Shown: positions 11,285 to 60,824 of the stretch, piece after piece
Layout of the letters: every line of letters begins with the position of its first letter
How positions within the stretch are numbered: position 1 is the first letter of the stretch
DNA from: Erodium maritimum
Taxonomy: Eukaryota; Streptophyta; Magnoliopsida; Geraniales; Geraniaceae
Assembly (NCBI GenBank): GCA_963921825.1
Contig: OY997594.1
Coordinates: 31,974,956 to 32,038,955 of the forward strand
Direction of reading: 5' to 3'
Length of the DNA stretch: 64,000 bases
Translations under genes and position numbers: made by a program
Notes under the pieces: generated by a model
The model's database searches: none
What the model saw: only the letters and a program-made list of their open reading frames with translations
What the model was told of the DNA's origin: nothing

Positions 11285-11691
11285 TAGAGTTGGTATCAGG
11301 TACAAACCACCCCTTATTGTGCAAACTACGAACCAATTTGAGCCATAGGATCCCCTCAAAAGTGATGTCAGCAGAGCGAACCAGATGCTGACACGTGGGC
11401 GCACGCGTTGCTGGTGCGCGCGCGCAAAGTGCTGATAGTTTGCATAGCACGGTGCTGATAGTTTTGTACAAAAGTGCCGATAGGTAACATTTGTACTAAA
11501 CTATAAGCACTGTGCTATGTAAACTATCAGTACCGTGCGCGCGTGCACCAGCACTGTGTGTGCGCACGCTGCTGGTGCAAGCTCGCGCCACGTGTCAGCA
11601 TCTGGGGCGTTCTGTTGACGTCACTTTAACCGCATCCTGTGGCTTAGATTGGTTCGTAGTTTACACGATAAAGGTAGTTTTTACTAAATAG

Positions 11692-11730
<39 letters not shown>
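11285..11730. mobile_element. Foldback MITE next to a (TA)n tract
   Basis: The left arm (GTTGGTATCAGGTACAAACC… from 11289) and the right arm (…GGTTCGTAGTTTACACGATAAAGG…GCTACCC to about 11697) are inverted repeats of roughly 200 bp. They leave almost no spacer, and the middle is rich in GCGCGC and 'GTGCTGATAGTTT' motifs. A (TA)n tract follows at 11699-11727. The element at 36634-37002 is a second copy of this family, also at (TA)n tracts. Confidence 0.8.
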
Positions 11731-24760: not shown

Positions 24761-25266
24761 TCACTTATATATATATATATAGGGGCACTTTCATGCGTTA
24801 CCATAGTGAATTTTGTTACTTGTTACCTATATCTAGACCCTTTAAATTTGTAATCTAATGGACGTAAATTTTTTGTCTCAATTATCCACAAAATAAATAG
24901 AAAAATCAACAAAAGGGTAATTTAGTAAATCCAACTCCATTAATTTTTGTACTGCATATTTTTATTACTGTTTAAATCTGGTTTTTTGATAATTATTTCA
25001 AAAAAAATATTTTTTTTTACAAATTTCGTAATTCATATTACATAATATTATGTCTAATATTACAAATCTTTACGTTCGATGTTACAGAAAGTTTATAGTG
25101 GTATTTCGAATTTTAAGTCGGGACTCTGATATAAAAAACCGATGTTATATAAATTTAATATCAATATTACAGAAATGAGTACAATTTTTTACATAATATA
25201 ACAACAAAAATTAAGAACTAAAATTTTTACCCAACTGTTAGTAAATTTAGTAAATCAATATACTAA

Positions 25267-26313
25267 GGGAAGCTTGTAAAACTATGCTTCATAATGATAA
25301 TAATTTGTAATATATGCTAGTATAGTTTAAAATTGGAAAACTATGCTTTTCAATTCTTTTAAGACAAAACTACCCTCATTCTAGTTTAAGCAAAAATAAT
25401 TCATATTTAATTTTATTATTAAATTCTATTTTCAAAATATATTCAGTTTTTATATAAAAATATTTTATTCAATCTTATAAATTATTAAAATTATATCATT
25501 ATTTTTTTTCTTAAAAATCAGATTATTTTGATAACTATTTTTAAAAATATAATTCAAATTATAAATGGTAATTTTGAAAAAATAGTTATTATATATTTTA
25601 ATTACTAAGTTCATATTTTATTTGAGATTTCTTTAAAAATCGGATTATTTTGATAAATATATTTTAAAATATAATTCAAATTTATAATGATAATTTTTGA
25701 AAAATAATTTCGATTTTGTACAAAAATTTTTTTATCCAATTTTAATAGTTAATAAATTTATTTTTTATTTTGTAAAATTTAAAGTAAAAAATAAATTAAA
25801 ATATGATATTTATAATTAATAAAATATGTTATAAATTGAATTCTCGTTTTAAAAGTATTTATGAAAGTAATCTGATATTTTTTTAAATCAAATCTGATTT
25901 TAGTAATTAATAAAATAATTCCATATGAAATATGAATATATAAATTAATATATTAATTTAATATATAATAAAACTGATTTTTTTTATAAAATTTAATATA
26001 TATTTCAAAATTATCATTAAAAACTTGAATTTTATTTTTAAAAATATTTATCAAAATTATACGATTTTTAAGGAAAAATTAAAATTTGATTTTAAAAATT
26101 TATAAGATTGAATAAAATATTTTTATATAAAATCTGAATTATATTTTGAAATGGATTTGAATAAATTAGTTAAATATAAATTATTTTTGTTTAAGTTGTC
26201 ATGAGGGTATCCTTGTCCTAAAAAAAATAAAAAGCATAGTTTTTCAATTTTAAACTATACTAGCATGGATTACAAATTCATGATTTTATGAGGCATAGTT
26301 TTACAAGTTTCCC
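25267..26313. mobile_element. MITE with about 115-bp inverted ends, 8-bp TSD TATACTAA
   Basis: Left GGGAAGCTTGTAAAACTATG… and right …CATAGTTTTACAAGTTTCCC are inverted repeats of about 115 bp with roughly 80% identity. The flanks carry TATACTAA at 25259-25266 and 26314-26321. The interior is highly AT-rich with no coding capacity. An 8-bp duplication fits hAT; a 9-bp Mutator-type duplication with one mismatch is the alternative. Confidence 0.85.
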
Positions 26314-26956
26314 TATACTAATCATTATAATCGTTACACGAATGAATACAATTTTTAAATAATACAATATCAAAAGTTACAGAACTAAAAACATATGTGG
26401 TACAGGAAAACATACCACATGTTACAAAATAATACACCATCTATTACAAAAAAAAATGTACCATATGTTACAAAATAATACACCATCTATTACAAAAAAA
26501 ATGTACCTGTTACAAATAAATACACAAAGTGTTACAGAAAAATACACAGTATTACAGAAATTTAAACAAATTGTTACATAAAAATATACAACTTATTGCA
26601 GAAAAATATACTACCTGTTACAGAGAAATACACCAAATGTTACAAAAAAAAGTGTTACAGAAAAATACCATGAAACAAAAATTGACCTAAAAAATCAAAT
26701 TGTTATGGATTCCTACCCTATTGTTTTAGTTCTAGATCAAACCTAAACAACACAATCCATCCAAAAACTACAAAATCACATGTTCTACTTATCTAAACTC
26801 CACAAAAAACAGATGAACACAAAAGGATTTTTCAAAACACACCATGGCCGAAGGATTTGGCACGTGAAAATGACGACCGGTATCCAAACCCATGGCCGAG
26901 ACTTTCACACCACTACCCACACTGTCCGAGAACCATATTTGTCCGTGAATTCGATC

Positions 26957-27090
26957 AGAGCATGAGTTGTTCCTCGCTAGATCTGCACGAGCACAGTGGC
27001 TGAGCACGAGTTGTTCCTAGCCGGATCTACAAGAGCACGGCGGCTGAGCATGAGCTTATCCTCGCCGGAGCAGCACGAGCATGGCGGCTG
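26957..27090. repeat. GC-rich tandem repeat, about 45-bp unit, three copies
   Basis: 'GAGCAYGAGTTGTTCCTMGC…GAGCACRGYGGCT' is repeated at about 26957, 27002 and 27047, and a fourth copy begins near 27091. It sits in the GC-rich middle of the (TA)n-bounded element. Confidence 0.85.
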
Positions 27091-27736
27091 AGCATAGATC
27101 GACGAAGGGGAGGGAGGATGAAGATAGAGCTCGGCAGCGCGCGTGTACTTGCCTTGGCATTTCTCCGGCGAGCCTTCCAGACTCAGCCCTCGGGCGGCCT
27201 CTTCATTTGGCGGCGGTGCACGGCGGATACGATTTCACCCAGCCCTCGGTATTCACGGCGAGAACCCAAATCAGGGCGCGTAGAGGTGGGCATGAGCTGC
27301 GACGAGGTCGATGTTCACGACCGGCTGGGGGCGAGCTCCACTTCCTTGCTCGGCGGCGGAGACTCGAGAAGGAGGTCGGAAAGATCCTCCTTCGCTGCAA
27401 GGGGTTATTGACTCCAAAAAAACAAGATTCATCCGCCGGAGACCTCCATGGGGCGGCGACATCGTCTGTGAGAAAGAGAGAACGAGAACAAAAAACAGAT
27501 CGTGAGGGCTGCTGCAAAATGTGAGGAAGGATAGGTTAGATTTAGGGTTAGTTAGAAGCAAAATTAAAATGACAAAACTGTCCTTAGATATATTGAAATT
27601 ACAAAAATAAAATAGAATTTTGTGTTATTTAAAGTCGTGTGCCATTCTAATCATAGCCATCAATTTAAGTTAATCCAATGGTCCATCATCTGGTAAGAAG
27701 TAACATTTCAACATATAGGTAATATATATATATATA

Positions 27737-28672
27737 TATATGATAATATTCAGGTACGACCATGCCAATTTTTTGCGAAATACGAACCAATTCCCAGCCT
27801 TGGAATCGCATGTAATCGCAATTCGCAAGGCTGGTTTTTTTTTCACCAAGTTTCTTATTTTGATCTTTCCCGTTTTGTTTCAACTCCGATTTAGATTTTT
27901 CTTGCACCAGAAACTTTCTTTTTTGAAGATCTATCTATCAAGTAACATATTGAATATGTTTTGAAGCAAAAAAAGACATGTACAAGCAAAAACACAAATT
28001 GTTAACCGCGCATTAATGTATGTGTTTGCAACTGCATTTGTATGAATAAGTTAATCGTAATGTATGTTTTGTATATATGTTTTTGCAACTGCATGTTTTG
28101 TAATTTTCGGTTATATGTGTACGCTAAACTTAATGTATGTTTACGCATTTTTCAATGTATGTTCTTGCCATTTTCATTTGTATGTGTAAGCCAACCTTAA
28201 TGCATGTTGTTTTAGTTGTATGTATACGCTAAACTTAATGTATGTTCTTACTATTTTCATTTGTATGTGTATTTATGTTTTGTACGTGTAAGCTAATAAA
28301 TTAAGATTAACTTACACATACATTAAGATTAGCTTATTCATACAAATGCAATTGCAAACACATACATTAATGCACGGTTGACAATTTATGTTTTTGCTTG
28401 TACATGTCTTTTTTTTGCTTCAAAACATATTCAATATGCTACTTGATAGATGGATCTTGAAAAAAGAAAGCTTTTGGCGCAAGAAAAAAAATTAAATTGG
28501 AGTTTAAACGAAGCGGGAAAGATCAAAATAAGAAACTTGGTGAAAAAAAATAAAAAAATCAGCCTTGCGAAATCGCAACCCTTGGGATTTCTACGATTCC
28601 AAAGTTGGGATTAATTCGTATTTTGTATCTAAAGATTGGTTTGTACCTGAAAGTTCCCTTATATATGATCAT
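27737..28672. mobile_element. Foldback element A, long palindrome between (TA)n tracts
   Basis: The left arm runs from TTCAGGTACGACC (27749) and the right arm ends GGTTTGTACCTGAAAG (28655). Each arm is about 400 bp, the inverted match is high over the whole length, and the centre is near 28200. The arms contain 'TGATCTTTCCCG', 'CAACTCCGATTTA' and 'CATATTGAATATGTTTTGAAGC'. The centre holds a ~40-bp minisatellite of 'ACGCTAAACTTAATGTATGTT' steps. It has no coding capacity. Confidence 0.85.
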
Positions 28673-28677
28673 TATCA

Positions 28678-29754
28678 GGTACAAACCTCACAAATTGGTC
28701 AGAACGTAGAACTAATCTCATCCTTCAAAATATGTTATTGGATGGGTGAGATTTGTTTTCCAATTTTAACTACACGCGCATAAAAGTATGCTGAAATCGG
28801 TTTTCATTTCGAATTTGAGGGTAATTTCGACTTTTTTTCCACCAAGTTTACTATTTTGATCTTTCCCGCTTCGTGTCAACTCCGATTTAATTTTTTCTTG
28901 CGCCAATAATTTTATTTTTCCAAGACCTATCTACCAAGTAGCATATTGAATACGTTTTGAAGCAAGAAAAAAAACCGATTTACTTAAACAAAAAAAAGGG
29001 AAACGAAAGGAACGTATGTTTTGTAATTTTCAGTTGTATGTGTACGCTAAACTTAATGTATGTTTATGTTGTAAAGTGAAAAGTTATGGATAGTATACAT
29101 ACAAATGCAATTGCAAAAATATACATTAAGGTTAGCTTACACATACAGATGAAAATGGTAAAAACATACATTCAATTTAGCTTACACATACAAATGAAAA
29201 TGGGAAGAACATACATCAAGTTTAGCTTACACATATGCAGTTGTGAAAACATAAAAACATACATTAAGTTTAGCCTACACATACAAATGAAAATGACAAG
29301 AACATACATTGAGTTTTAGCTCCTATAAACATACATTAGGTTTAGCGTACACATACAACTGAAAATTACAAAACATACATTAATTTCGTTTATTTTTTTG
29401 TTTGTTTGAGTAAATCGTTTTTTCTTGCTTCAAAACATATTCAATATGCTACTTGATATATAGTTCTTGGGAAAATAAAAATATTGGCGCAAGAAAAAAT
29501 TAAATCGGAGTTGAACGAAGCGGGAAAGATCAAAATAGTAAACTTGGTGAAAAAAAACCGAAAATAGCAGCCAATTTCGTATATGAATGTTACATGCGCG
29601 TGAACCAATTTCCGAAACTACCCCATATAGATGCACGTGAACCAATTTTACATGTATAATTTCTGAAAATTATGGGCCCTAGATTTTCAATATTGGAAGG
29701 TGTAGATTAGTTATATGTTCTGATCTAAGGAGTGATTTGTACTTGATAGCTCCT
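28678..29754. mobile_element. Foldback element B, adjoining element A
   Basis: The left end ATCAGGTACAAACCTCAC (28674) pairs with the right end read inward, ATCAAGTACAAATCACTCC (29745). Arms of more than 400 bp share the same inner motifs as element A, and the centre (29080-29390) is an 'AACATACATTAAGTTTAGCTTACACATACA' minisatellite. It is separated from A only by a short TATATATGATCATT stretch and is followed by a (TA)n tract at 29758-29781. Confidence 0.85.
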
Positions 29755-31046
29755 ATGTATATATATACATATATATATATATAGGAGCTTTCAGGTACAA
29801 CACAATCTTTAAATACGAAATACGACTTAACAGTGCGGGACCATCTACGGGCACGCCCCGCGTCCCGCCGGTCGCAGACCCTCCCACCACGACCGCCCTG
29901 AACGAGCTGACCAGGGCAGTACAGAGTTTGGCGGCGATCGTCGCCAGTCGAATGTCGGCTCGGTTGGACCGACATCGGCAATTTCTGGACCTGCATCAGG
30001 AGGAGATGTCAGTGGCAGAATACGAGGCCAGATTCACGGCCCTGACCAGAGTCGCGCCAGAGACGGTGGCGACAGAGCAGAACCGTGGCCTGAGGTTCGA
30101 GGAGGAACTGAGGCCGGTGACTAGGGACCGAGTCCTCACATCGAGGCTTCGAGACACTACCGCGACAGTGGAGCAGGATATCCGGGATGCGGTCGGGACC
30201 CGCGAGGTTCGACAGCGGCCGATCAGTGTGGCGGGGGAGTCCGAGTCCCTAGACCCGATGAGACAGAGGACCACGGGGTTCTTCAGGCCACAGGCTCAGC
30301 AGGACGGAGCAAGACAGAGGGCACTAGTTAGGCCAGTCATGTCAGGGAGGGCGCCGAAGTGCTATGCCTGCGGCCAGCGAGGCCACCTCCTTCGCGAGTG
30401 TCCGAGGGGAGTGGGACCCGCGGCGTTACCAGCGGCCAGTCAGGTAGGCCAGGGCATGGAGCTGAGTGCGGACCATAGGAGGTGTTTCCGGTTCCACCGG
30501 GTCGGGCACGCCGTTGCAAGGTGCCCTGAGCCGCGCATGGCAACGTCAGTGTAGCAGCCGCAGCGATCGCGTACCGTGCAGTGGCTCAGAGGTCGCCCGC
30601 TTCAGAGTCAACAATCGAAGTTTTCGCAACCGTCAACGAGCGTGCCAGCTCCGAGGCAGCAACAAGGATCTGGGTATCCAACAGACGGTACGCCGGGTCA
30701 GAGGCAGCGGGCGTCAGAGGGAAGAGGGTACGTAGTTGCCGACTCCCAGGTCCCAGGATCCCTTACCTACCACGAGACCTATCAAGGTACATGTTTATTG
30801 TAACTTTTATGAGCGTTATTCTAATTTCGCGGACGAAATTCCTTTACGGGGGGTAGATTGTAATAACCACTCCCGGTCAACGCTAGTCAAACCTGCGAAA
30901 AACAGGAAAAATTTAAAAAAATTAAGACTGACAGTTAAGTGAACCTAAAATGACCACGAGTGTCATACCGGACTTAATTTGACCCCGTTATTCACCAAAG
31001 TGAGTTCCGGGGGACTCAGGGCAACTTTCTGATCAATTTGGGAAAT

Positions 31047-31072: not shown

Positions 31073-34000
31073 CGAGCGACGTTTTGGTCCATTCGAGTAA
31101 TGTTTGGGATCCAAAAAGCTTAGCCGTCGTCGCAGCGATCTTAGTTGAGCCGTTTTCTTGTAGAACGCCAAGTTTCGTAATTTCTTGAGAAAAGTGCCCG
31201 TTCGGGGCCCGAAACGTCCGTTTTTCGCAAAACTGATTGGAAAATATCAACTAGATATTTTCCAAAAGGTGTGGGACCCACCTTAACACTTGTCATTTAT
31301 ATGATGGTGTTAGTTTTGGGGGGAAAAGGTGTGGAGGAGGTGTGTTGGCCGAACATGTGGGTTTAAAGGAGGGGAATTAGTTTTGTTGTTAGTTTAATGA
31401 AAATAGAAAAAGGAAGAAGAGAGTTAGAGAGAGAAGGAGAAGGAGAAGAAGAGAGAAGGTGAAAGGGTTAGGGTTTGGAGGAGAATCAAACCCTTGGATC
31501 GATTCAAAGCAAGGAGCAATTGTCTTCCCCTCATTCTCCTCTTGGGTAAGCACCGAACCGATCGTCTTTTTGATAGTTTTCAAACGTTAGGGTTTGGGTG
31601 AAACTATTAGTTTATGGTGGTTTTGGTGTTGGGGAAATTTTTGGAGACGTTTTAGAGGTGTTGGAGGTTTAATTGCACGTTTTCCGGTGACCGGAGGCTC
31701 GGGAGGAGCTCCGGCCACCGTGGGTGGTGGCCGGCCGGCCATGGGGTGGCTGGCCGGAGGTGGTACCAGCCACCACCATGGTGGCCGAACCCCCCTTGAG
31801 CCCTAGGAGCTCTCGGCCAAGTGGGTTGGTGGGGCCCACGTGCTCGGGTTCTCGGGTTTTATCGTTCGGGTGGTTTAAAACGTTCCCCGGACCATTTACC
31901 CTTAATCGAATCGAAATTTGGAATTAAATTGGAGAAGTTGTAATTAACGGGTTTTGGAAACTTTAAACGTTAATTAATTGACTTAGAAGTCGGAATTCGA
32001 TTCTGTCAAGTGCGTTGGGTTCCTTGAATTATTCTAAGACCGTAGAAACAAAAACGGGGGCTTTTGGAGCCCCGGAAGGCAATTAACAAAACCCGGGCAG
32101 ATTCGCCATGTCGGGCGAATCGGGCCTTTACGGGTCCTTTATCGACAATGTCGAGTAATTGGGAAGTTTGGGAGTGATCGACATTGTCGGGGTTAAGTTT
32201 GGGCTTCGAGTTTAATGGTTTTCGGTTTATTCGTACTAGTTTAAAAGTGCCCTTAAATTGTGTTCTTTTAGATCGTGCCACAGACCGGGGCAAGGGAAAG
32301 CTGGGTGAGTGACTGAGAGCATCACCGGAGCTCGTAGTTGGCTTTTGGGAGAACACGCACGAGGTAGGGAAAAGTAGCCGGATCTCGGCCCTGACTGGGG
32401 AAAGTTAACAGTAGAATTGCATGTGACACCAGGGTGTCGTGGGTTGAATAGGTTTATTTAAATATTAGAAAAGCATGCTACGGGAACTTGGTAATTATTA
32501 GAAAAGCATGCTACGGGAACTTGGTAATTATTAGAAAAGCATGCTACGGGAACTTGGTAATTATTAGAAAAGCATGATACAGGATTGTAGCGTTTATCAG
32601 AAAAGCATGTTACGAGAACTTAGTAATTATTGGAAAGGCATGTGACACTTAGTAGTGTCGTAGGAGTAGAGAACTTAGTGATAATTGTTTTACTGGAGGC
32701 ATATGACCATGCCCGGAGGTTGATTGTGAACTTATCGATATTAGGAGTACTGGAGGCATATGACCATGCCCGGAGGTTGTTTGAGAAACCGTTGATATCA
32801 GGACTGTTGGAGGCTTGGTTAAGCCGGAGGTTGACTGCTTATTTGGTGTCTTTGGTGGCCTTGAGAGCCCGTGTTTTATTATTGAGTTTGGGTGGCCTTG
32901 AGAGCCCGTATTATTTATTGATTGAGTTTGGGTGGCCTTGAGAGCCCGTGTATTTAAATTGGTGTCTGGGTGGCCATGAGAGCCGTAGTTAATTGTTGGT
33001 GTTTTGGGTGGCCATGAGAGCCCGTGTATTTAAATTGGTGTCTTGGGTGGCCATGAGAGCCGTAGTTAATTGTTGGTGTTTTGGGTGGCCATGAGAGCCC
33101 GTGTATTTAAATTGGTGTTTTGGGTGGCTTGAGAGCCGTGTACTAAGGTTGGTGTCTTTGGCTGGCCTACCGAGTTAGAGTCTCGGGGGTTGCAAGCTTT
33201 CTTAAGCTGGCTTACGAGTTAGAGTCTCGGTAAGTTGCAAGCGTGTTTTATGGTTGGTGTCTTGGGAGGCCGTGAGTGCCTGTGGGGTTGTTGAGTCCGT
33301 GTCTTACTGTCGGTGTGTCTTGCGAGGCCGTGAGTGCCTGTGGGACTGTTGAGTCCGAGTTTTACGGTTAGTGTCTTGGTGGCCATGAGTGCCTGTGGGT
33401 GTTGAACATGTGTTGTTACTGGTTGTTGATTTTGCTTGTGATTGTGTTTGTGATTGTGATTGTGATTGTGGTTACCGGAGGTTGGGGGCCCGCTTCCTGA
33501 AACGGGGGTCCACGAGCACACGCGTCTGCATGTTCAGACGGGGTAGGGGGCCCGCCCGCCAATAAAGGGGTCCTGGCCGCGCGTGTGTGGTTTGGGTTTG
33601 TGAGCATACCTTGCCTGGCTTATGGGTTAAAGTCCTAGTAAGTTGCAGCATATTCCGGCTGGCTTATGGGTTAGAGTCCCAGTAAGTTGCAGCATTTTCC
33701 GGCTGGCTTATGGGTTAGAGTCCCGGTAAGTTGCAGCATTCTTGGGTTGGCCTGACCGGGTTAGAGTCCCGAGAGGGCGTTCTTGGCAGCTGGTTTGCGA
33801 TCCTTTGTGATCTTGTTTGGTGTGCGATCCTTTGTGATCTTGTTTGGTGTGTGATCCCTTGTGATGTTGTTTGGTGTTGCGTAGTTCCCTTTGAGTCCTT
33901 GGAAGAGGTCGTGATCGTTGTGTCGGGTCTACCTTGCGTGTCAAGTGTCGAGTCATTCGAGGAAAGTCACCGTGGGTGTTTGTTCAGTTAGAGTACTTGG

Positions 34001-34107: not shown

Positions 34108-34383
34108 CCTAGCTGCTTTTCCTACAGGTACTGTTCGTGGGACGGACTAGGTGAGCTCTCGAAGCTTGTGGAGCTAGGAGCGGAGTCCGGGTCTTGTCTT
34201 TTGAGTCTAGTGACGGATACCTCGTCTTTTGTCCACTTGTTGGGACGTGTTTTAAATTGTAATTATTATTTTGTTGAACAAATGGTACTTTTAAAGTGTT
34301 TAATGAAAACAGGTTTTCAAGTGTTTTTATGTTTTAAAAAGTTCGCGTCCCTAGTTCGGTTTTACTGAAATTGGGGCGTGACA

Positions 34384-36330
34384 AATATAGGCTTTCAAAT
34401 CCCTATAGTAGTTGAGGAAGTCAATCTATGTAGCACCAACATGGCTGGGACCTCCACGTGATTGAATGATTAGTTTATGAGCCTTTGAAGGCCCTATTCC
34501 TTATCTCTCACAATTGTTAATACACTCAACATGGTTCCCTCCCATGTGTGTGTTGCCTCGCATTTCATGTTTATGCTCTCCTCCAACCAAAGGATGGTTG
34601 TGACCTTTAATACACTTTGGAACCTTGTACCCTTCTTCCTCTGATACAAATGTGAATCTTATCATCGCTTCACAATTGATCATTGTGACCAATCTGTTCC
34701 TTTTTTTTGTAGACTTAGAAACTTGTGGGTTGTTTTATTCAGGGATCTCACCCTATTTGGAGCATACTATGTATTTTATCACTACGCGTTTTCCTTCACC
34801 TTGCTTTTCTTCATACCTTTTTGTAGAGAATTCTAACAATCCACCATAATTCTGATAGAAATCTATCGCCTGATTCAGTGTCTTAAATTCTTTTCCTTCA
34901 AACGGCTTTCTTTTAGGCTGGCATGATGGAAAGTATATCCTTGTTCTTCCAGTAGACAATAGTATAGTGTCTTGCAAGTCGGATTCTGCAGTATAATCAT
35001 TGTTTGGGGCTACAGATGATTTTCTTGATAATATGATTTAGTTTGAGGATATAATAATTCCGGATTGCAAATAAAGCACATATAGACTCAGATAAATATA
35101 ACAAACTCAAATATGAGGCACATGAACTACATAGTTTTTGTTTGAGGATATAGGTATTATAGTATGCAAACACAACACATACATGCACACACAAAGTAAG
35201 GTACATGTTACGTGTTCAGCAGAGTTTTTATTTTGAGGATACATACATTCTAGTCTCCAAATACAACAAGCACATACTCAGTTAGTCATAACAGAGGAAG
35301 ATAATTGTCACATACACAACATATATTTTTGTTTGAGGATATAAGCATCCTAGTTTGCAAATAAATCAAGGCAGACTCACGGAGGAGACAATACAAAGTA
35401 GAGTACTAGGTTTGAGTATATAAACATTCTAGTTTGCAGATACAAGATACGAGAATTGAGAAAGAACACAACAAAGTAAGATAATAGGCACAAACACAAC
35501 AGAGAGATAGATGAGGATACAATTATTCATGTTTGCGAATTAAGAACAACTAGATTGAGCAGAAGACAACATAAAACAAGAGTGAGATTGGGGATACAAG
35601 AATTCTAGTTAGCAGATATAGAATACAAGGTGAGATAATAGGCACAGATACAACAGAGAAGAAGATTGAGGATACAGTAAGTCTCGTTTGTAGATACAAA
35701 ACAACATGATTGAGAGTGAAGAAAACAAACATCACTAAACGGTTTGAGAATACATGCATTCCAATTTACGCAACACTGAACATGATTAGGACCTTTCAGG
35801 CGATGCAAAAACAGAATTCACAGCGACATTAGAAGCAAATCTTTACTTTTTTGTGAATATATGTACTTACATATGGTAGATGACATCTCGATTGACGATC
35901 GTCGATCTCTGTGAACAAATTCGGCAATTTCCGTGAATATCTCTAGCGATCTTTATTGCGATCTCCGACGAACTGGTTCTTAGTTTTTGTTTGGAATCGA
36001 GTTTTACAGAATCACAGTTGCTTTTAATCTTGTCCACGATCCCGATTTCTTCGAGAGAATCTCCTATTTATGGTTGATTATATAAATCCCAGAGATTTAT
36101 TCGAGAGAGTTTCCAATTCTATGTTTGATTCGAGTTCGAAGTTGTGGATCTGCATAACATTCATGTTTTGAATTCGACGTTTTAAAGAGGTATTCGGATT
36201 ACGGATTTTCCCCTAGACAAGCGCGCGTGGACCAGATCGAGGCCTAATTCGCGCGCTGAGCTAAGAACCTTCGATGATGCGCGATGGAAGAACCTGATGC
36301 AGTTCGCAGGTTCGCATCTTATGAGGGGTT
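34384..36330 (-). mobile_element. FAR1-type Mutator-like element or FAR1-related gene, 5' part only
   Basis: On the minus strand, 34977-34753 ('PFEGKEFKTLNQAIDFYQNY') and 34692-34501 ('NCEAMIRFTFVSEEEGYKV', 'CIKGHNHPLV') together make a FAR1 DNA-binding domain of the kind found in FAR1/FHY3 proteins and Mutator-like transposases. The coding part stops at the Gypsy LTR boundary (34383), and the transposase core and SWIM domain are missing. The upstream part (35000-36330) is non-coding and begins with a repeat array. The domain frames do not join cleanly, so I regard it as a pseudogene. Confidence 0.6.
35030..35790. repeat. Degenerate minisatellite, about nine copies, unit 75-110 bp
   Basis: The motif 'GTTTGAGGATATAAGCATTCTAGTTTGCAAATACAA' recurs about nine times (near 35035, 35150, 35230, 35330, 35408, 35510, 35585, 35667 and 35740) with diverged spacers rich in 'CACAACA' and 'AGACTCA'. 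It lies directly upstream of the FAR1 reading frame. Confidence 0.75.
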
Positions 36331-36357
36331 CAGACCTGATTGCCCTTATATATATAT

Positions 36358-36594
36358 ATGTATAGGATACAATTCATGTACAAACTTGTATCTTTCATAC
36401 GAAATACAAATTATCAATCTGGGTCTTTGGATCGTAGAGTCAAAGGCCCAGATTAAACAAAAATCATTAATGACACAATCATTAATGCATATATTTGTAA
36501 TTAATTTCGTAATCAATCACCTCACCTCTTGAATTTCAATAGCCATCCGATCCCCTAAATCAATGACCCAAATTGGTTTGTATTCAAAAGTTAT

Positions 36595-36598
<4 letters not shown>
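36358..36598. mobile_element. (TA)n-linked MITE, family F, copy 1
   Basis: About 240 bp between (TA)n tracts. It contains 'CATGTACAAACTTGTATCTTTC', 'TCTGGGTCTTTGGATCGTAGAGTCAAAGG', 'ATTTCGTAATCAATCACC' and 'GCCATCCGATCC'. The same ordered motifs occur at 37015-37262, so the two are copies of one family. Confidence 0.75.
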
Positions 36599-36633
<35 letters not shown>

Positions 36634-36638
<5 letters not shown>

Positions 36639-37002
36639 TGGTATCAAATACAAACCACCCCTTATTGTGCAAACTACGAACTCACCAGGTGCTGACACGT
36701 GGGCGCGCGCGCTGCTGGTGCGCGCGCACAGTGCTGACACGTGGCGTGCATAGTGCTAATAGTTTGGGCGCACAGTGCTAATAGTTTGGCACCGTTCTAA
36801 ACTATTAGCACTGTGCGCGCCAAACTATTAGCACCGTGCGCGCGCATGTTCAACACGCTCACGCGCGCGGGTAGAGGCGCGCGCGAATCTGCCACGTGTC
36901 AACATCGCGCGCGCTCTGCTGACGTCACTTTGACTGCATCCTGTGGCTTAGATTGGTTCGTAGTTTGCACAATAAGGATGGTTTTTACTGGATAGCTACC
37001 CT
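36634..37002. mobile_element. Foldback MITE between (TA)n tracts
   Basis: Left 'GGTTGGTATCAAATACAAACCACCCCTTATTGTGCAAACTACG' (motif shown in part) and the right arm ending 'GGATAGCTACCC' pair along most of the 370 bp. The GC-rich centre has repeated 'GTGCTAATAGTTTG'. It is a copy of the 11285-11697 family. (TA)n tracts flank it at 36597-36633 and 37002-37020. Confidence 0.85.
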
Positions 37003-37014
37003 ATATATATATAT

Positions 37015-37262
37015 ATATAATAACTATCATGTACAAACCTTTTATCTTCGTCAGAACTACAAACTATTAATCTGAGCCCTTGGACCCTGGAATTAAAGGC
37101 TCATATTTAATGCATATCTTTGTAATTAATGCATATCTTGTAATTTATTTCGTAATCAATCACCATACACCCTGAATTTCGGTGGCCATCCGATTTGGGT
37201 AATGAATGACTCAGATTAGTTCTACGTTTGTACCTGAAAATAGGTTTATAGTTGATATTCCC
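37015..37262. mobile_element. (TA)n-linked MITE, family F, copy 2
   Basis: Same motif order as 36358-36598, with a short (TA)n tract at each end (37002-37020 and 37262-37274). Copy 1, the foldback and this copy therefore sit in a row, sharing (TA)n joints. Confidence 0.7.
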
Positions 37263-37274
37263 CATATATATATA

Positions 37275-39322: not shown

Positions 39323-42300
39323 TGTAATAACCACTCCCGGTCAATGCCAGTCAAATCTGCGAAAAACAGGAAAATTTAAAAAATTTCAGCAAACACTTGG
39401 TTGAACCTAAATTTGACCCCAAGGGTCATACCGGGCTTAAGTTGACCCCGTTATTGACCAAAGTGAGTTCCGGGGGACTCACGGCAACTTTCTGATCAAT
39501 TTGGGAAATGTTGACTTTTCGTTGGAAAAGTCAACCGAGCGACGTTTTGGTCCATTCGAGGACCGTTTTGGGTCCAAAAAACTTAGCCGTCGTCGCAGCG
39601 GTCTTAGTTGAGCCGTTTCCTTGTAGCTCGTCAAGTTTCGTAATTTCTTGGAAAAAGTGCCCGTTCGGGGCACGAAACGTCCGAATTTCGCGAATCTGAT
39701 TGGAAAATATCTAGTAGATATTTTCCAAAAAAGGTGTGGGACCCACCTTGCCACTTGTCAAACAAGTGGTGGTGTTAGGTTTTGGGACAAGACAAGACAA
39801 GACTTTGATGGTTAGTTTTGCTTTTTAAAGTGTTAGTTTTTTTAATAAAACAAAAGGGAAATAAGATGATACACGTCCATTTCAAAAAAAGAAGAAGAAA
39901 AGGTTTTAGAGAGAGAAAATGAGTTAGGAGAAAAGAAGAGAAAAGAGAAGAGGCTTGGGGAATTTGTGACGTTTCTCGATCATCCGACCGGTGGATCGTC
40001 TCAACGATAGAAGAATCGAGTTCACACCGTCATTCTCTACGGTGAGCACCTAACCGATTTTCGTTTTGGAAAGTTCGAATTTTAGGGTTTGAGTTTAAAC
40101 GATTCAAATATGGTTGGGTTTTGTTCAAGTTTGGTTTAAAGATGATTGGTTGAGGTTTGGAGTTCGTTAGGAACGTTTTGGGGCGAAAAGGGAATTTTTC
40201 CCATTGTGGCCGTGTGGGGCCCACGTTCCCGGGTATTGGGTTTTTGTGTTTGGGTGGTTTAGAACGTTCCCCGGATCATTAATCCACAACCGGATCGAAA
40301 TTTGGAATTATATTGCAAAAGTTGCATTTATCGGGTTTAGAAACTTTAAACGCTAATTAATTGACTCGGAAGTCGGAATTCGATTCCGTCGAGTGCCTTG
40401 GGACCCTTGAATTATTCTAATACCGTAGAAACGAATACGAGAATTTTCTGAGCCCCGGAAAGGCATTTACAAAACCCGGGCAGATTCGCCATGTCGGGCG
40501 AATCGGGCTTTTTCGGGTACAATATCGACAATGTCGAGTAATTGGGGAGTTTGGGAGTGATCGACATTGTCGGGGTTACTTTTGGGCGTCAGGTTTATTA
40601 AAATTCAGCATTATGCCTGCAAGCTTAAAAGCGTTTAAAATTGTGTTCTTTTAGATCGTGATTCGGACCGGGGCCAAGGAAAGCTAGGCGAGTGACGGAG
40701 ATCACGCCGGGGCTTATTTGGGAACTTTTGGAGAACACGCACGAGGTAGGGAAAAGTAGCCGGATCTCGGCCCTGACTAGGGAAAGTTAACAATAGAATT
40801 GCATGTGACACCGGGGTGTCGTGGGTTAAGTAGGTTATCGAATATTAGAAATGCATGTGACACTTGGGTGTCGTGGGTTAAGTAGGTTATCGAAGGTTGG
40901 AAATGCATGTGACACTTAGTAGTGTCGTAGGAGCAGAGAACTTAGCGATATTAGAATTACTGGAGGCATATGACCATGCCCGGAGGTTGATTGTGAAACT
41001 GTGGATATTAGAACTACTGGAGGCATTGGTTATGCCCGGAGGTTGTTTGTGTAAATTATGTCTTGGGTGGCCATGAGAGCCCGTATTACTATTATGTCTT
41101 GGGTGGCCATGAGAGCCCGTATTTTACTGTTGTGTCTTGGGTGGCCATGAGAGCCCGTATTTTACTGTTGTGTCTTGGGTGGCCATGAGAGCCCGTATTA
41201 CTGTTATGTCTTGGGTGGCCATGAGAGCCCGTGTTTTACTGTTGTGTCTTGGGTGGCCATGAGAGCCCGTGTTTTACTGTTGTGTCTTGGGTGGCCATGA
41301 GAGCCCGTGTTTTACTGTTGTGTCTTGGGTGGCCATGAGAGCCCGTATTTTACTGTTGTGTCTTGGGTGGCCATGAGAGCCCGTACTTTACTGTTGTGTC
41401 TTGGAAGGCCGTGAGTGCCCGTGGGGTTGTTGAGCCCGGGAGTTACTGTTGGTGTGTCTTGGGTGGCCGTGAGTGCCTGTGTGGTTGTTGAACCCGTGTC
41501 TTTACTGTTGGTGTGTCTTGGAAGGCCGTGAGTGCCCGTGGGGTTGTTGAGCCCGTGAGTTACTGTTGGTGTGTCTTGGTGGCCATGAGTGCCCGTGGGG
41601 TTGTTGAGCCCGTGAGTTATGGTTGGTGTGTCTTGGGAGGCCGTAAGTGCCCGTGGGGTTGTTGAGCCCGTGAGTTATGGTTGGTGTGTCTTGGGAGGCC
41701 GTGAGTGCCCGTGGGGTTGTTGAGCCCGTGAGTTATGGTTGGTGTGTCTTGGGAGGCCGTGAGTGCCCGTGGGGTTGTTGAGTCCGTGTTTTACCGTTGG
41801 TGTCTTGGGTGGCCATGAGTGCCTGTGGAGTGTTGAACCGGTCTTGTTGCTGTTTGTTGAACCTTGCTTGTGATTGTGATTGTGTTTGCCCGAGGTTAGT
41901 GACCCGACTTCGTGTCGGGAAGTGGTGTGGTAATTGGCTGGCTTACCTGACAGGGATCGGTAAGTTGCGAGCGTTCTTTGGCTGGCCTGACCGAGTTCGA
42001 GTCTCAGGAGGTTGCGAGCGTTCTTTGGCTGGCTTGACCGAGTTCGAGTCTCGGGAAGTTGTGAGCATTCTTTGGCTAGCCTGACTGAGTTCGAGTCTCG
42101 GGAGGTTGTGAGCGTTTTTAGGCGATGAGAGGGCAGCTCCCCTTCCGACTAGCTATCGGAAAAGCAGCGCTGTATATATCGCCAACAGGTCGACCGCCTG
42201 GAGCCTGACAGGGATCAGCAAAGCGCGTGGGGTAGGCTCGAGCCCAGTCGGTTAGCAACCGGCACTGAGCAGCTGACAGGAGTGCGATCCTTTGTGATCT

Positions 42301-57840: not shown

Positions 57841-60824
57841 GTGGCATTAGGGTTCAGAAACCCTAATACCCACTCCCCCTCTCCACGCCGCCCCTCTCCT
57901 CTCCGAACCCGATCCTCTCCCTTCCATTTCTCCGGCGACCTCCATCTTCTCCGGCCGACATACCAGCTTCGGCTCCTTCTTCTCCGTCCACCACCACCGA
58001 GCCCGACAGCCACCACCCGTCCTTCCTCTCCGGCCCTCTCAACGCCACCGCCCGTTCAGCCACCACGCCGCCGTCTCCTCCTCTCCGTCCAACCGCGCCG
58101 CCGTCTTCTCCTCATCGTCCGTCACCGAGACCTCGCCCGAGCCATTCTCCCTTCGCCATCGCCACCGGCGAGTACGCCGTGCGAGTCGGCGCCGGCGTTT
58201 CCCTCACTCGGATCCGAGCCGCCGCCGTCTTCGAGGGTAGCAAGGCCGGAGCTGCCTCGCCGTCGCCAGAGACGGGACGAGCTCGCCGGACCTGTTCAGA
58301 TCTAGGGCGGGACAACCGTGCTCCGCCGTCCCCCGGCCGCAACCACCTCCGCCGGCCACCCCCTCGAATCCGAGGCCGTCGTCCCAGATCTGAGACGGGT
58401 GACAGGCCACCGAGCTCCGCCGTGCCCCGCCGTCCTTCCCCCCCCACGTGAGGTTCGTGCCTGGGGGTTTAGTCGCCGGCGACGTATTCGCCGGCGGCCG
58501 GTTTATTTTCTGTTCGTTCGTCCTTTTTTTATTTAGCCTCTGTGTTTCGTCCCGAGCTGTAGATTAGAGTAGGTTTGTGAAAAACGACGGGAAGTACTGT
58601 AACTACAAAAAATGAAGTAATGAAACAGTTTTGATTTAAAAGTTATTTGTGTATTTGTGGAACGAAAATGATTGAAACCGAAATCTATTTTCTTGGATCT
58701 GGTCATGAGGAGCAATGGTTGAAACAGAAAAGGAAAAAGGGATTTGAAATAAAATGGGATTAACATAAATTTGGTTTTAATAACGGTTTTAAATCGAGGA
58801 GTTGAGAATCAGATTTGTTAGGAAATAAACTTAATCGTCGGAAACAAAACTTGAGTTTTAGAAAATCGATTTAAGGGAACAATCAGATTTGATTTAAAAT
58901 GGATCTTGGTCCGTTGAGCGTGGAACGAATAATCGGGCTGTTAAAATGGACTGCAATTCGGGTTTAAAAGGGAACAAAAGCAGACCGTTGAATCGGACCT
59001 CGGGACTCGTGCATTGGGACTGTGCCTCGCATGCACCGGTTTCGGTGCTCGGGTACTCCACCCGATTCACCGTGACCCCGCTTTTATCCCGCTCGAGTTT
59101 AAGGGACTACTGTCGGTTTTTAAAATGGTTTAATCGCGACCTTTAGATTAACCTGGGAACCGCCTCTAATTTATGGCTTTCTTGTTATCCTTAGCGTCCG
59201 GCTTCGATCGAAGTGAAGCCCGGAGGTAGCGAGCCAGAACGTCAGCAGCTAGGAAGCGTAGCGGTTGCTCTTCAGTTGAGGTAGGGAAAAGTAGCCGGAT
59301 CTCGGCCCTGACTGGGGAAAGTTAACAGTAGAATTGCATGTGACACCGGGGTGCCGTGGGTTAATTAGGTTTGTTTAAAGATTAGAAAAGCATGATACGG
59401 GATTGTAGCGTTTATTAAAAAAGCGTGATACGAGATTTTAGCGTTTAAGAGAAAAGCATGTGACACTTAGTAGTGTCGTAGGAACAGAGAACTTAGCGAT
59501 AATCGTTTTACTGGAGGCATATGACCATGCCCGGAGGTTGATTGTGAACTTATCGATATTAGGAGTACTGGAGGCATATGACCATGCCCGGAGGTTGATT
59601 GTGAAACTGTTGATATTAGGACTGTTGGAGGCTTGGGTTAAGCAGGAGGTTGATTGTTTATTTTGGCGTCTTGGGTGGCCATGAGAGCCCGTGTTGTTAA
59701 TCGTGTTTAGGTGGCCATGAGAGCCCGTACTTTACTGTTGGTGTTTTAGCTGGCTTATGAGTTAGAGTCTCGGTAAGTTGCAAGCGTGTTTTATTGTTGA
59801 GTTTTGGGTGGCCATGAGTGCCCGTGGGGTTGTTGAACCCGTGTCTTTACCTTTGGTGTTTTGGGTGGCCTTGAGAGCCCGTGTACTAAGGTTGGTGTCT
59901 TTGGCTGGCCTGACCGAGTTAGAGTCTCGGGGGGTTGCAAGCTCTCTTTAGCTGGCTTACGAGTTAGAGTCTCGGTAAGTTGCAAGCGTGTTTTATGGTT
60001 GGTGTCTTGGGAGGCCGTGAGTGCCTGTGGGGCTGTTGAGTCCGTGTCTTACTGTCGGTGTGTCTTGGGAGGCCGTGAGTGCCTGTGGGGCTGTTGAGTC
60101 CGAGTTTTACGGTTGGTGTCTTGGTGGCCATGAGTGCCTGTGAGTGTTGAACCTGTGTCGTTACTGGTTGTTGATTTTGCTTGTGATTGTGTTTGTGATT
60201 GTGGTTACCGGAGGTTGGGGGCCCGCTTCCTGAAACGGGGGTCCACGAGCACACGCGTCTGCATGTTCAGACGGGGTAGGGGGCCTGCCCGCCAATAAAG
60301 GGGTCCTGGCCGCGCGTGTGTGGTTTGGGTTTGTGAGCATACTTTGGCTGGCTTGCGGGTTAGAGTCCCGGTAAGTTGCAGCATTTTCCGGCTGGCTTAT
60401 GGGTTAGAGTCCCAGTAAGTTGCAGCATTTTCCGGCTGGCTTACGGGTTAGAGTCCCAGTAAGTTGCAGCATTCTTGGGTTGGCCTGACCGGGTTAGAGT
60501 CCCGGGAGGGCGTTCTTGGCAGCTGGTTTGCGATTCTTTGTGATCTTGTTTTGGTGTGCGATCCTTTGTGATCTTGGTTGGTGTGTGATCCCTTGTGATG
60601 CTGTTTGATGTTGCGTACTTTCTTTTGAGTCCTTGGAAGAGGTCGTCAATCGTTGGGTCAGGTCTACTTTACGTGTCAGAGTGTTGAGTCGTTCGAGGAA
60701 GGTCATCGTGGGTGTTTGTTAGTCAGAGTGCTTGGGTTGGGGATGGTTTCCCCGGTGTTGAGTCATTGTTGGTGTTACTTGCTTTGCCTGCTAATTATGC
60801 CGTAGTCAGTCTGTTATCCGTGGT

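Follow-up and report, generated by a model that had tools for sequence, protein, structure and literature searches.

Chains of transposable elements that abut one another at (TA)n microsatellites occur in a 64,000-nucleotide stretch of the Erodium maritimum genome (the window; C7:31,974,956-32,038,955), and their units recur elsewhere in the 763-Mb, 40-contig assembly, of which the nine contigs looked at measure 63-159 Mb each. We read these chains as Mutator-like elements (MULEs) of the SaTar kind that target microsatellites and owe their movement to a FAR1-type MULE transposase, and put the probability of this reading at about 0.85. The families have a common terminal core and TA flanks, their modules are reordered from locus to locus, and one host repeat has TA-rich sequence at the insertion site in its empty copies. 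In addition, some copies are flanked by duplications of ~10 bp, and both the 3' and the 5' ends of a large MULE lie at (TA)n.

Chain architecture in the window

The first chain comprises four units in a row at 24,783-29,833, with nothing but (TA)n between them in the window sequence:

24,783-27,718, plus strand: u1, non-autonomous, ~1.9 kb without the foldback nested in it, delimited from the sequence and from related copies L002-L006; (TA)n-GGGGCACTTTCATGCGTTACC on the left, while the right end seems to have eroded into (TA)n
27,719-27,741, no strand: (TA)n joint between u1 and u2
27,742-28,658, plus strand: u2, a foldback element of ~0.9 kb with the end TTCAGGTACGACC..ATACGAACC; copies in L011, L014, L026-L028 and L033
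28,659-28,666, no strand: short (TA)n joint between u2 and u3
28,667-29,753, plus strand: u3, a foldback element of ~1.1 kb, high in copy number
29,754-29,783, no strand: (TA)n joint between u3 and the fourth unit
29,784-29,833, plus strand: fourth unit, a u2-type start truncated after ~50 bp

A preliminary description of this DNA had recognised that these units are joined by (TA)n alone, and the two near-complete palindromes of ~1 kb that it reported correspond to u2 and u3, whose long inverted repeats have arms matching at 94% (27,968-28,067/28,316-28,415 and 28,876-28,972/29,418-29,514, respectively). Its first element of 2.9 kb, however, did not stand. A single element of that length is ruled out by the composition of u1, in which a foldback of 1,047 bp, missing from L002-L006, is nested within ~1.9 kb of u1 sequence. 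The end motifs described as common to the chain likewise hold only in part, u1 having another end (GGGGCACTTTCATGCGTTACC) and carrying the 'TTTCAGGTACAAACC' motif weakly.

The second chain spans 34,384-37,263, and a solitary unit lies apart from both chains:

34,384-36,345, minus strand: MULE-type coding remnant whose terminal GGGCAATCAGGTCTGAACCCCTCATAAGATGCGAACCTGCGAACTG adjoins (TA)n, followed by a broken FAR1-like transposase exon (open reading frame, ORF, 35,037-34,753)
36,346-36,364, no strand: (TA)n joint between the MULE remnant and v1
36,365-36,595, plus strand: v1, non-autonomous, ~230 bp
36,596-36,634, no strand: (TA)19 joint between v1 and v2
36,635-37,001, plus strand: v2, non-autonomous, ~370 bp, with the end GGGTTGGTATCA..
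37,002-37,019, no strand: (TA)n joint between v2 and v3
37,020-37,263, plus strand: v3, non-autonomous, ~245 bp, v1-like
11,287-11,697, plus strand: x1, solitary and v2-like, with (TA)15 on its right side only (11,698-11,728)

Three units in a row at 36.3 kb and one at 11.29 kb had been noted before. All four are real, but the row continues on its left into a coding unit (34,384-36,345) that had been overlooked, and the long TA tract of the solitary unit is confined to its right side. The end of the coding remnant, read from 36,345 on the minus strand, stands directly at (TA)n and runs GGGCAATCAGGTCTGAACCCC...GCGAACCTGCGAACTG; its FAR1-like exon goes on through broken frames until sequence beginning TGTCACGCCCC interrupts it at 34,383. 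Of the window's twelve (TA)5+ tracts, nine are located at the end of a unit, so the association between tracts and units is not due to chance.

Genome-wide copies and their TA flanks

The u3 element has at least 40 near-full-length copies among the scored matches, with 2,090 first-look candidates. Its end statistics derive from 32 distinct insertions in 30 fetched loci, and since these were the best-scoring ones the sample favours intact copies. Complete ends stand next to (TA)4+ in 54 of 60 cases, compared with 0.7% of random 45-bp stretches of the window, and where both ends are complete, (TA)4+ flanks the element on either side in 24 of 28 insertions. The six ends without (TA)4+ comprise one each in L009 (the window copy, with its short tract) and L018 and both ends in L013 and L019. 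More than half of the complete ends run across the tract into another end motif (36/60, 35 of these with (TA)4+; background 1.8%), and three-quarters of the insertions (24/32) have at least one joint to another end.

Searches with the end motifs themselves gave a consistent picture. ATCAGGTACAAACC has 1,495 exact matches in the genome against 6 for the reversed control, AATCAGGTGCGAACC has 954 against 1, and a 37-base end has 419 matches at three mismatches or fewer against 0. Among the first 100 listed of the 1,495 places, all of them on C1, the 21 bp upstream of ATCAGGTACAAACC contain (TA)4+ in 83 and (TA)3+ in 91. Tracts of six or more TA units were absent from L042-L071. Insertion into (TA)n, as the preliminary description had proposed, is thus supported, both by these flanks and by the TA-rich empty copies of the L081 host repeat treated below; among the 32 u3 insertions, copies without (TA)n at their ends, which it had named as the result that would tell against it, are far from being the rule.

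A bipartite end common to several families

Ends were chosen from all fetched loci as TA-flanked sequences with the core TCA(A/G)GT(A/G)C(A/G)AA, one mismatch being allowed. The resulting 124 distinct ends fall into 27 groups, 11 of which have three or more members and include the MULE 3' end; because the groups are of ends, one family may give two. A CGAAC-like inner doublet often follows 11-13 bp further in, in 8 of the 12 groups with two or more members. The short class with MULE-like ends has the inner motif TGCGAACCTGCGAAC, a close variant of which stands at the MULE 5' end, and other groups have CAGAACGTAGAAC, CAAACTACGAAC or GCGAAATACGAAC. The earlier impression that several unrelated-looking families use the same joints was therefore right as to the joints, but their ends are not unrelated, with the core in 11 groups and the inner motif in 8 of 12. 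As read from sequence comparison, such a shared bipartite end would fit, without proving, recognition by one transposase or by close relatives.

A FAR1-type MULE as candidate coding partner

The preliminary description had pointed to a coding element with the same ends as something to look for, and a large FAR1-type MULE, whose ends are of the same kind and also stand at (TA)n, is now a candidate. The FAR1-like exon of the window gave 150 scored relatives among 531 candidates. The window remnant is 78.6% identical over 729 bp of DNA to L072, which encodes a FAR1 domain (PF03101, E 7e-17) and a MULE transposase domain (PF10551, E 3e-21); the window ORF itself gave no Pfam match. On C1, between 4.4 and 61.4 Mb, ten of the twelve FAR1-exon matches are followed 11-30 kb downstream by an end motif in the correct orientation, against a mean of 0.27 under random placement, where 4 was the highest count in 20,000. 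Four of the ten MULE 3' ends were fetched (L074-L077). They are pairwise 95.8-98.3% identical over ~2.3 kb up to GGTTCGCACCTGATTGCTCTCC, beyond which each has (TA)n and then sequence differing from the others, which is consistent with a large, young element of high copy number that inserts at TA. At the opposite side, L079 carries a MULE 5' end at (TA)16, 6.4 kb before a 278-aa exon, and this end aligns with the 5' end of the window remnant. A search of L073 and L078 did not reveal the 5' end of the copy at C1:46.96 Mb; repeated sequence interrupts the region there. The MULE domains are accordingly tied to the ends piecewise, through L074-L077, L079, the window remnant and the distance statistic.

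The leading alternative is that another transposase mobilises the families and that the FAR1-type MULE merely has the same target preference. MULEs are numerous in this genome, with 1,627 first-look candidates for PF10551 genome-wide, and the ends of the FAR1-type MULE were pieced together from separate copies rather than read from one full-length coding copy, which leaves room for such a transposase. We nevertheless consider it unlikely, given that the MULE's own ends have the same core and inner motif as these families and that in L026 a 97% match to the MULE 3' end (L026:1-1507) is joined directly to u3 at (TA)n.

Comparison by eye of the exact end matches with the PF10551 places was uninformative. 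An Ulp1 protease as part of the FAR1-type MULE found no support: a second ORF near the 3' end had no Pfam match over the cut-off, and none of the PF02902 matches (150 scored of 439 candidates) fell within the ten FAR1-MULE intervals on C1 when these were compared by eye. Apart from this element, a second high-copy MULE transposase family was seen, with ORFs of up to 691 aa that are pairwise 84-98% identical (L058-L061, L063, L064, L066-L069 and L071). Some PF10551 places also have a Peptidase_C48 (Ulp1-like) match ~4-6 kb away on the opposite strand, as at C4:14590109/14595119 and C5:42008511/42012646.

The TA tract as probable target

The TA tract appears to be part of the target and not of the element, to judge from one host site and from the copies that lie outside TA. 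The insertion in L081 lies in a palindromic host repeat. Its two flanks, joined into a query of 208 bases, aligned over 201 bases or more at every one of the 40 scored places (2,646 first-look candidates). Eight empty copies of this repeat are TA-rich at the site: five carry at least three consecutive TA, and the other three have shorter TA-rich sequence; at this one TA-flanked insertion, the empty sites therefore agree with insertion into TA repeats as first proposed, with the qualification that three of the eight do not reach three consecutive TA. The host repeat (L092-L099) is TA-rich at its centre, where a u1-type (L006) and a v2-type (L081) element seem to have inserted; L006 is placed there because its left flank is very similar to that of L081.

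Outside TA tracts, some copies show a target duplication within the 8-11 bp typical of MULEs. L086 has a perfect 10-bp duplication, TATTAATCTA, and its joint is spanned as an empty site by 36 of the 43 matches listed, four of which were read. The corresponding duplications match at 9 of 10 bases in L085 and at 8 of 10 in L013.

A small fraction of ends adjoin another microsatellite: (GA)4+ occurs at 5 of the first 100 listed ATCAGGTACAAACC ends. In the five such loci fetched (L080-L084), (GA)n is one-sided, lying between (TA)n and the element, with TA and no GA on the other side. Its position inside (TA)n fits slippage at a purine-rich element edge, which is how we infer that it arose. As an alternative target, (GA)n is ruled out by the same five loci. 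In L037, the element adjoins the end of another family that likewise runs out into (CT)n, such edge tracts having been seen in two families.

These observations bear on two further explanations. Under the proposal made for SaTar, arrays arise by homologous recombination of circular intermediates with microsatellite filler rather than by cut-and-paste into TA. The (GA)4+ ends (5 of 100) are of the kind that it would accommodate, but their one-sidedness in all five loci, with TA and no GA opposite, suits edge slippage, and the three copies outside TA match at 8-10 of the 10 duplication bases; we regard the proposal as improbable here. Still less probable is that the TA tracts belong to the element and travel with it, so that chains are adjacent copies bringing their own repeats. 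Such elements would explain TA on both sides in 24 of 28 complete insertions and the three empty host copies with fewer than three TA in a row, whereas the TA-richness of the empty host copies, five of eight with three or more TA in a row, and the existence of L086, L085 and L013 without TA tracts, the first with a clean 10-bp duplication, argue against them.

Module order

The units u2, u3, v1, v2, v3 and x1 recur elsewhere in differing orders and orientations, as exemplified by L026 (u3- v2+ v3+ u2-), L027 (u2+ v2+ v2- u3+) and L033 (v2- u2- v3- u3+), which makes the chains look assembled piecewise. Nesting of chain units in one another was not seen on the locus maps, which cover copies chosen by score and include the rearranged L023. 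Movement or duplication of chains as blocks, with neighbours copied together, is the least credible explanation and was dismissed for the loci examined, because u2 and u3, although near neighbours in L009, L011, L014, L026-L028 and L033, differ there in order, orientation and intervening modules, and the joints and flanks around the shared pair differ in these seven loci.

Proposed mechanism and its weighing

According to the mechanism we propose for SaTar-like chains driven by a FAR1-type MULE, large elements of the same genome would encode a MULE transposase with a FAR1-type DNA-binding domain, which would bind a bipartite end consisting of ~GGNNNN(N)[AT]TCAGGTRCRAACC and, after 11-13 bp, a CGAAC-like doublet, for example GCGAACCTGCGAAC. 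Several otherwise unrelated non-autonomous families would carry the same bipartite end and could thus all be mobilised by this transposase. Insertion would occur preferentially into short TA runs, with a target duplication of ~10 bp, so that each event would copy part of the TA run to both sides of the element, and the runs would then lengthen. An occupied site would consequently retain targets at both edges, on which later insertions of any family with such ends could land, and chains of abutting elements would grow end to end by successive insertion. In its strongest form, in which one FAR1-type MULE cross-mobilises many unrelated families, insertions renew and lengthen the TA pads, and edge slippage explains the odd non-TA flanks, the proposal is tentative, and we rate it at somewhat less than even odds.

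Several points weigh against the SaTar-like reading. The core motif is common to the end groups by construction, the ends having been selected with it, while the expression for the inner motif was written after looking and fails in 4 of 12 groups; the u1 family has other ends, with no tie to the FAR1-MULE transposase. In the pairing of exons and ends, the range of 11-30 kb was picked after the matches had been seen, 2 of the 12 transposase matches have no such end motif, and at the same distances three of 12 matches have a wrongly oriented motif, while the mirror side yields 3 and 3 of 12. The two ends of the MULE come from separate copies, the 5' end resting on L079 and the window and the 3' end on four copies and the distance statistic. 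On the target side, three of eight empty copies of the L081 host repeat fall short of three consecutive TA, L019 has neither TA flanks nor a duplication, and empty sites for L085 and L013 were looked for and none was found. The apparent lack of nesting comes from a biased sample of score-picked copies. Mobilisation is read here from sequence, and the lengthening of TA runs after insertion is a step that we infer.

Other features

The foldback nested in u1 is a transposon of another kind than the chain units:

25,267-26,313, no strand: AT-rich foldback of 1,047 bp with arms of 241 nt matching at 81%, not flanked by TA

It is bordered by an 8-bp duplication, TATACTAA (25,259-25,266 and 26,314-26,321), its ends read GGGAA(G/A)CTTGTAAAACTATGC, and it is absent from all five related copies of u1 compared (L002, 96% identical to u1, and L003-L006). 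Within u1, the stretch 26,840-27,560 is GC-rich compared with the AT-rich remainder and holds a 44-bp tandem repeat at 26,958-27,095; it is possibly captured host DNA. The 146-aa ORF in this stretch had no Pfam match, and a Pfam search with two ORFs of the u1 region was uninformative.

After the truncated fourth unit of the first chain there is a retrotransposon-like gag ORF, read from the translation, no family search having been made. The sequence beginning TGTCACGCCCC (window 34,300-34,383) is 93% identical to L073 over 85 bp (L073:1426-1508; also L078:355) and occurs twice near C1:46.95 Mb, the two copies being 97.8% identical over 544 bp, a pattern as expected of the two long terminal repeats of one retrotransposon. 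Blocks rich in tandem repeats, with partly similar units, lie at 32,459-33,877, 40,794-42,123 and 59,381-60,599 of the window.

Relation to known systems and significance

The preliminary description knew of no account of such an arrangement, a claim that published SaTar arrays leave unsupported, as do MuTAnT (PMC4486113) and the pineapple mt-MITEs (PMC8449440). SaTar, as reported from guayule, rice, sorghum and citrus (PMC5907723, 2018), is made up of different non-autonomous MULEs that are stacked in arrays without nesting and linked by microsatellites, with duplications of 9-10 bp in a minority of copies and with autonomous MULEs of similar ends in the arrays. In SaTar and the AgS-/ArS-MULEs, as here, several non-autonomous MULE families lie at (TA)n in mixed end-to-end arrays (PMC5907723). 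The likeness, as drawn from the descriptions, extends to microsatellites on both sides, some duplications of ~10 bp outside microsatellites and ends resembling those of a co-resident MULE. Recombination of circular intermediates was proposed there to account for guayule flanks that in some cases are other than TA or incompatible with a duplication (PMC5907723). The present chains differ from that account in their FAR1-domain coding partner, in the several non-autonomous families with a similar end and in one-sided (GA)n read as edge expansion.

Other systems share parts of this picture. MuTAnT/AutoMuTAnT of Medicago (PMC4486113) likewise comprises foldback-type MULEs in (TA)n, with a variable number of terminal Gs, 9-nt duplications outside microsatellites, empty sites with fewer TA and a Jittery-like autonomous element with long TA flanks; it is one family of 218 copies with a 4.9-kb autonomous element, whereas here there are many families, chains and a larger MULE. 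The Ac-mMITEs (mt-MITEs) of pineapple (PMC8449440) are TA-flanked, MULE-derived miniature inverted-repeat transposable elements (MITEs), 46.1% of whose full-length copies are clustered by adjacent insertion and a minority of which have 9/10-bp duplications; they differ in forming two families, with no autonomous partner reported in that account. Micron of rice and TAFT/TAFTA of maize also insert in (TA)n, as described by the papers that cite them, and for TAFTA empty sites are cited whose short TA runs are longer once an element has inserted (PMC5907723). In the main accounts of SaTar, MuTAnT and the pineapple elements, neither a FAR1-type partner whose end recurs in many families nor one-sided (GA)n as an edge effect was found, and their supplements and other parts may hold either.

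The chains are thus a real and common feature of this genome that is explained by a published phenomenon, to which the present analysis makes some useful additions. Microsatellite-stacked MULE arrays at high copy number are extended to a further plant genome, and several families are tied to a concrete candidate transposase with a similar end. Two questions become testable: whether cut-and-paste into short TA runs suffices to form arrays and whether insertion lengthens TA tracts. If the strongest form of the proposal is true, slippage would account for non-TA flanks of the sort that prompted the recombination proposal elsewhere, and the TA tracts would be self-renewing landing pads on which mixed transposon chains grow.

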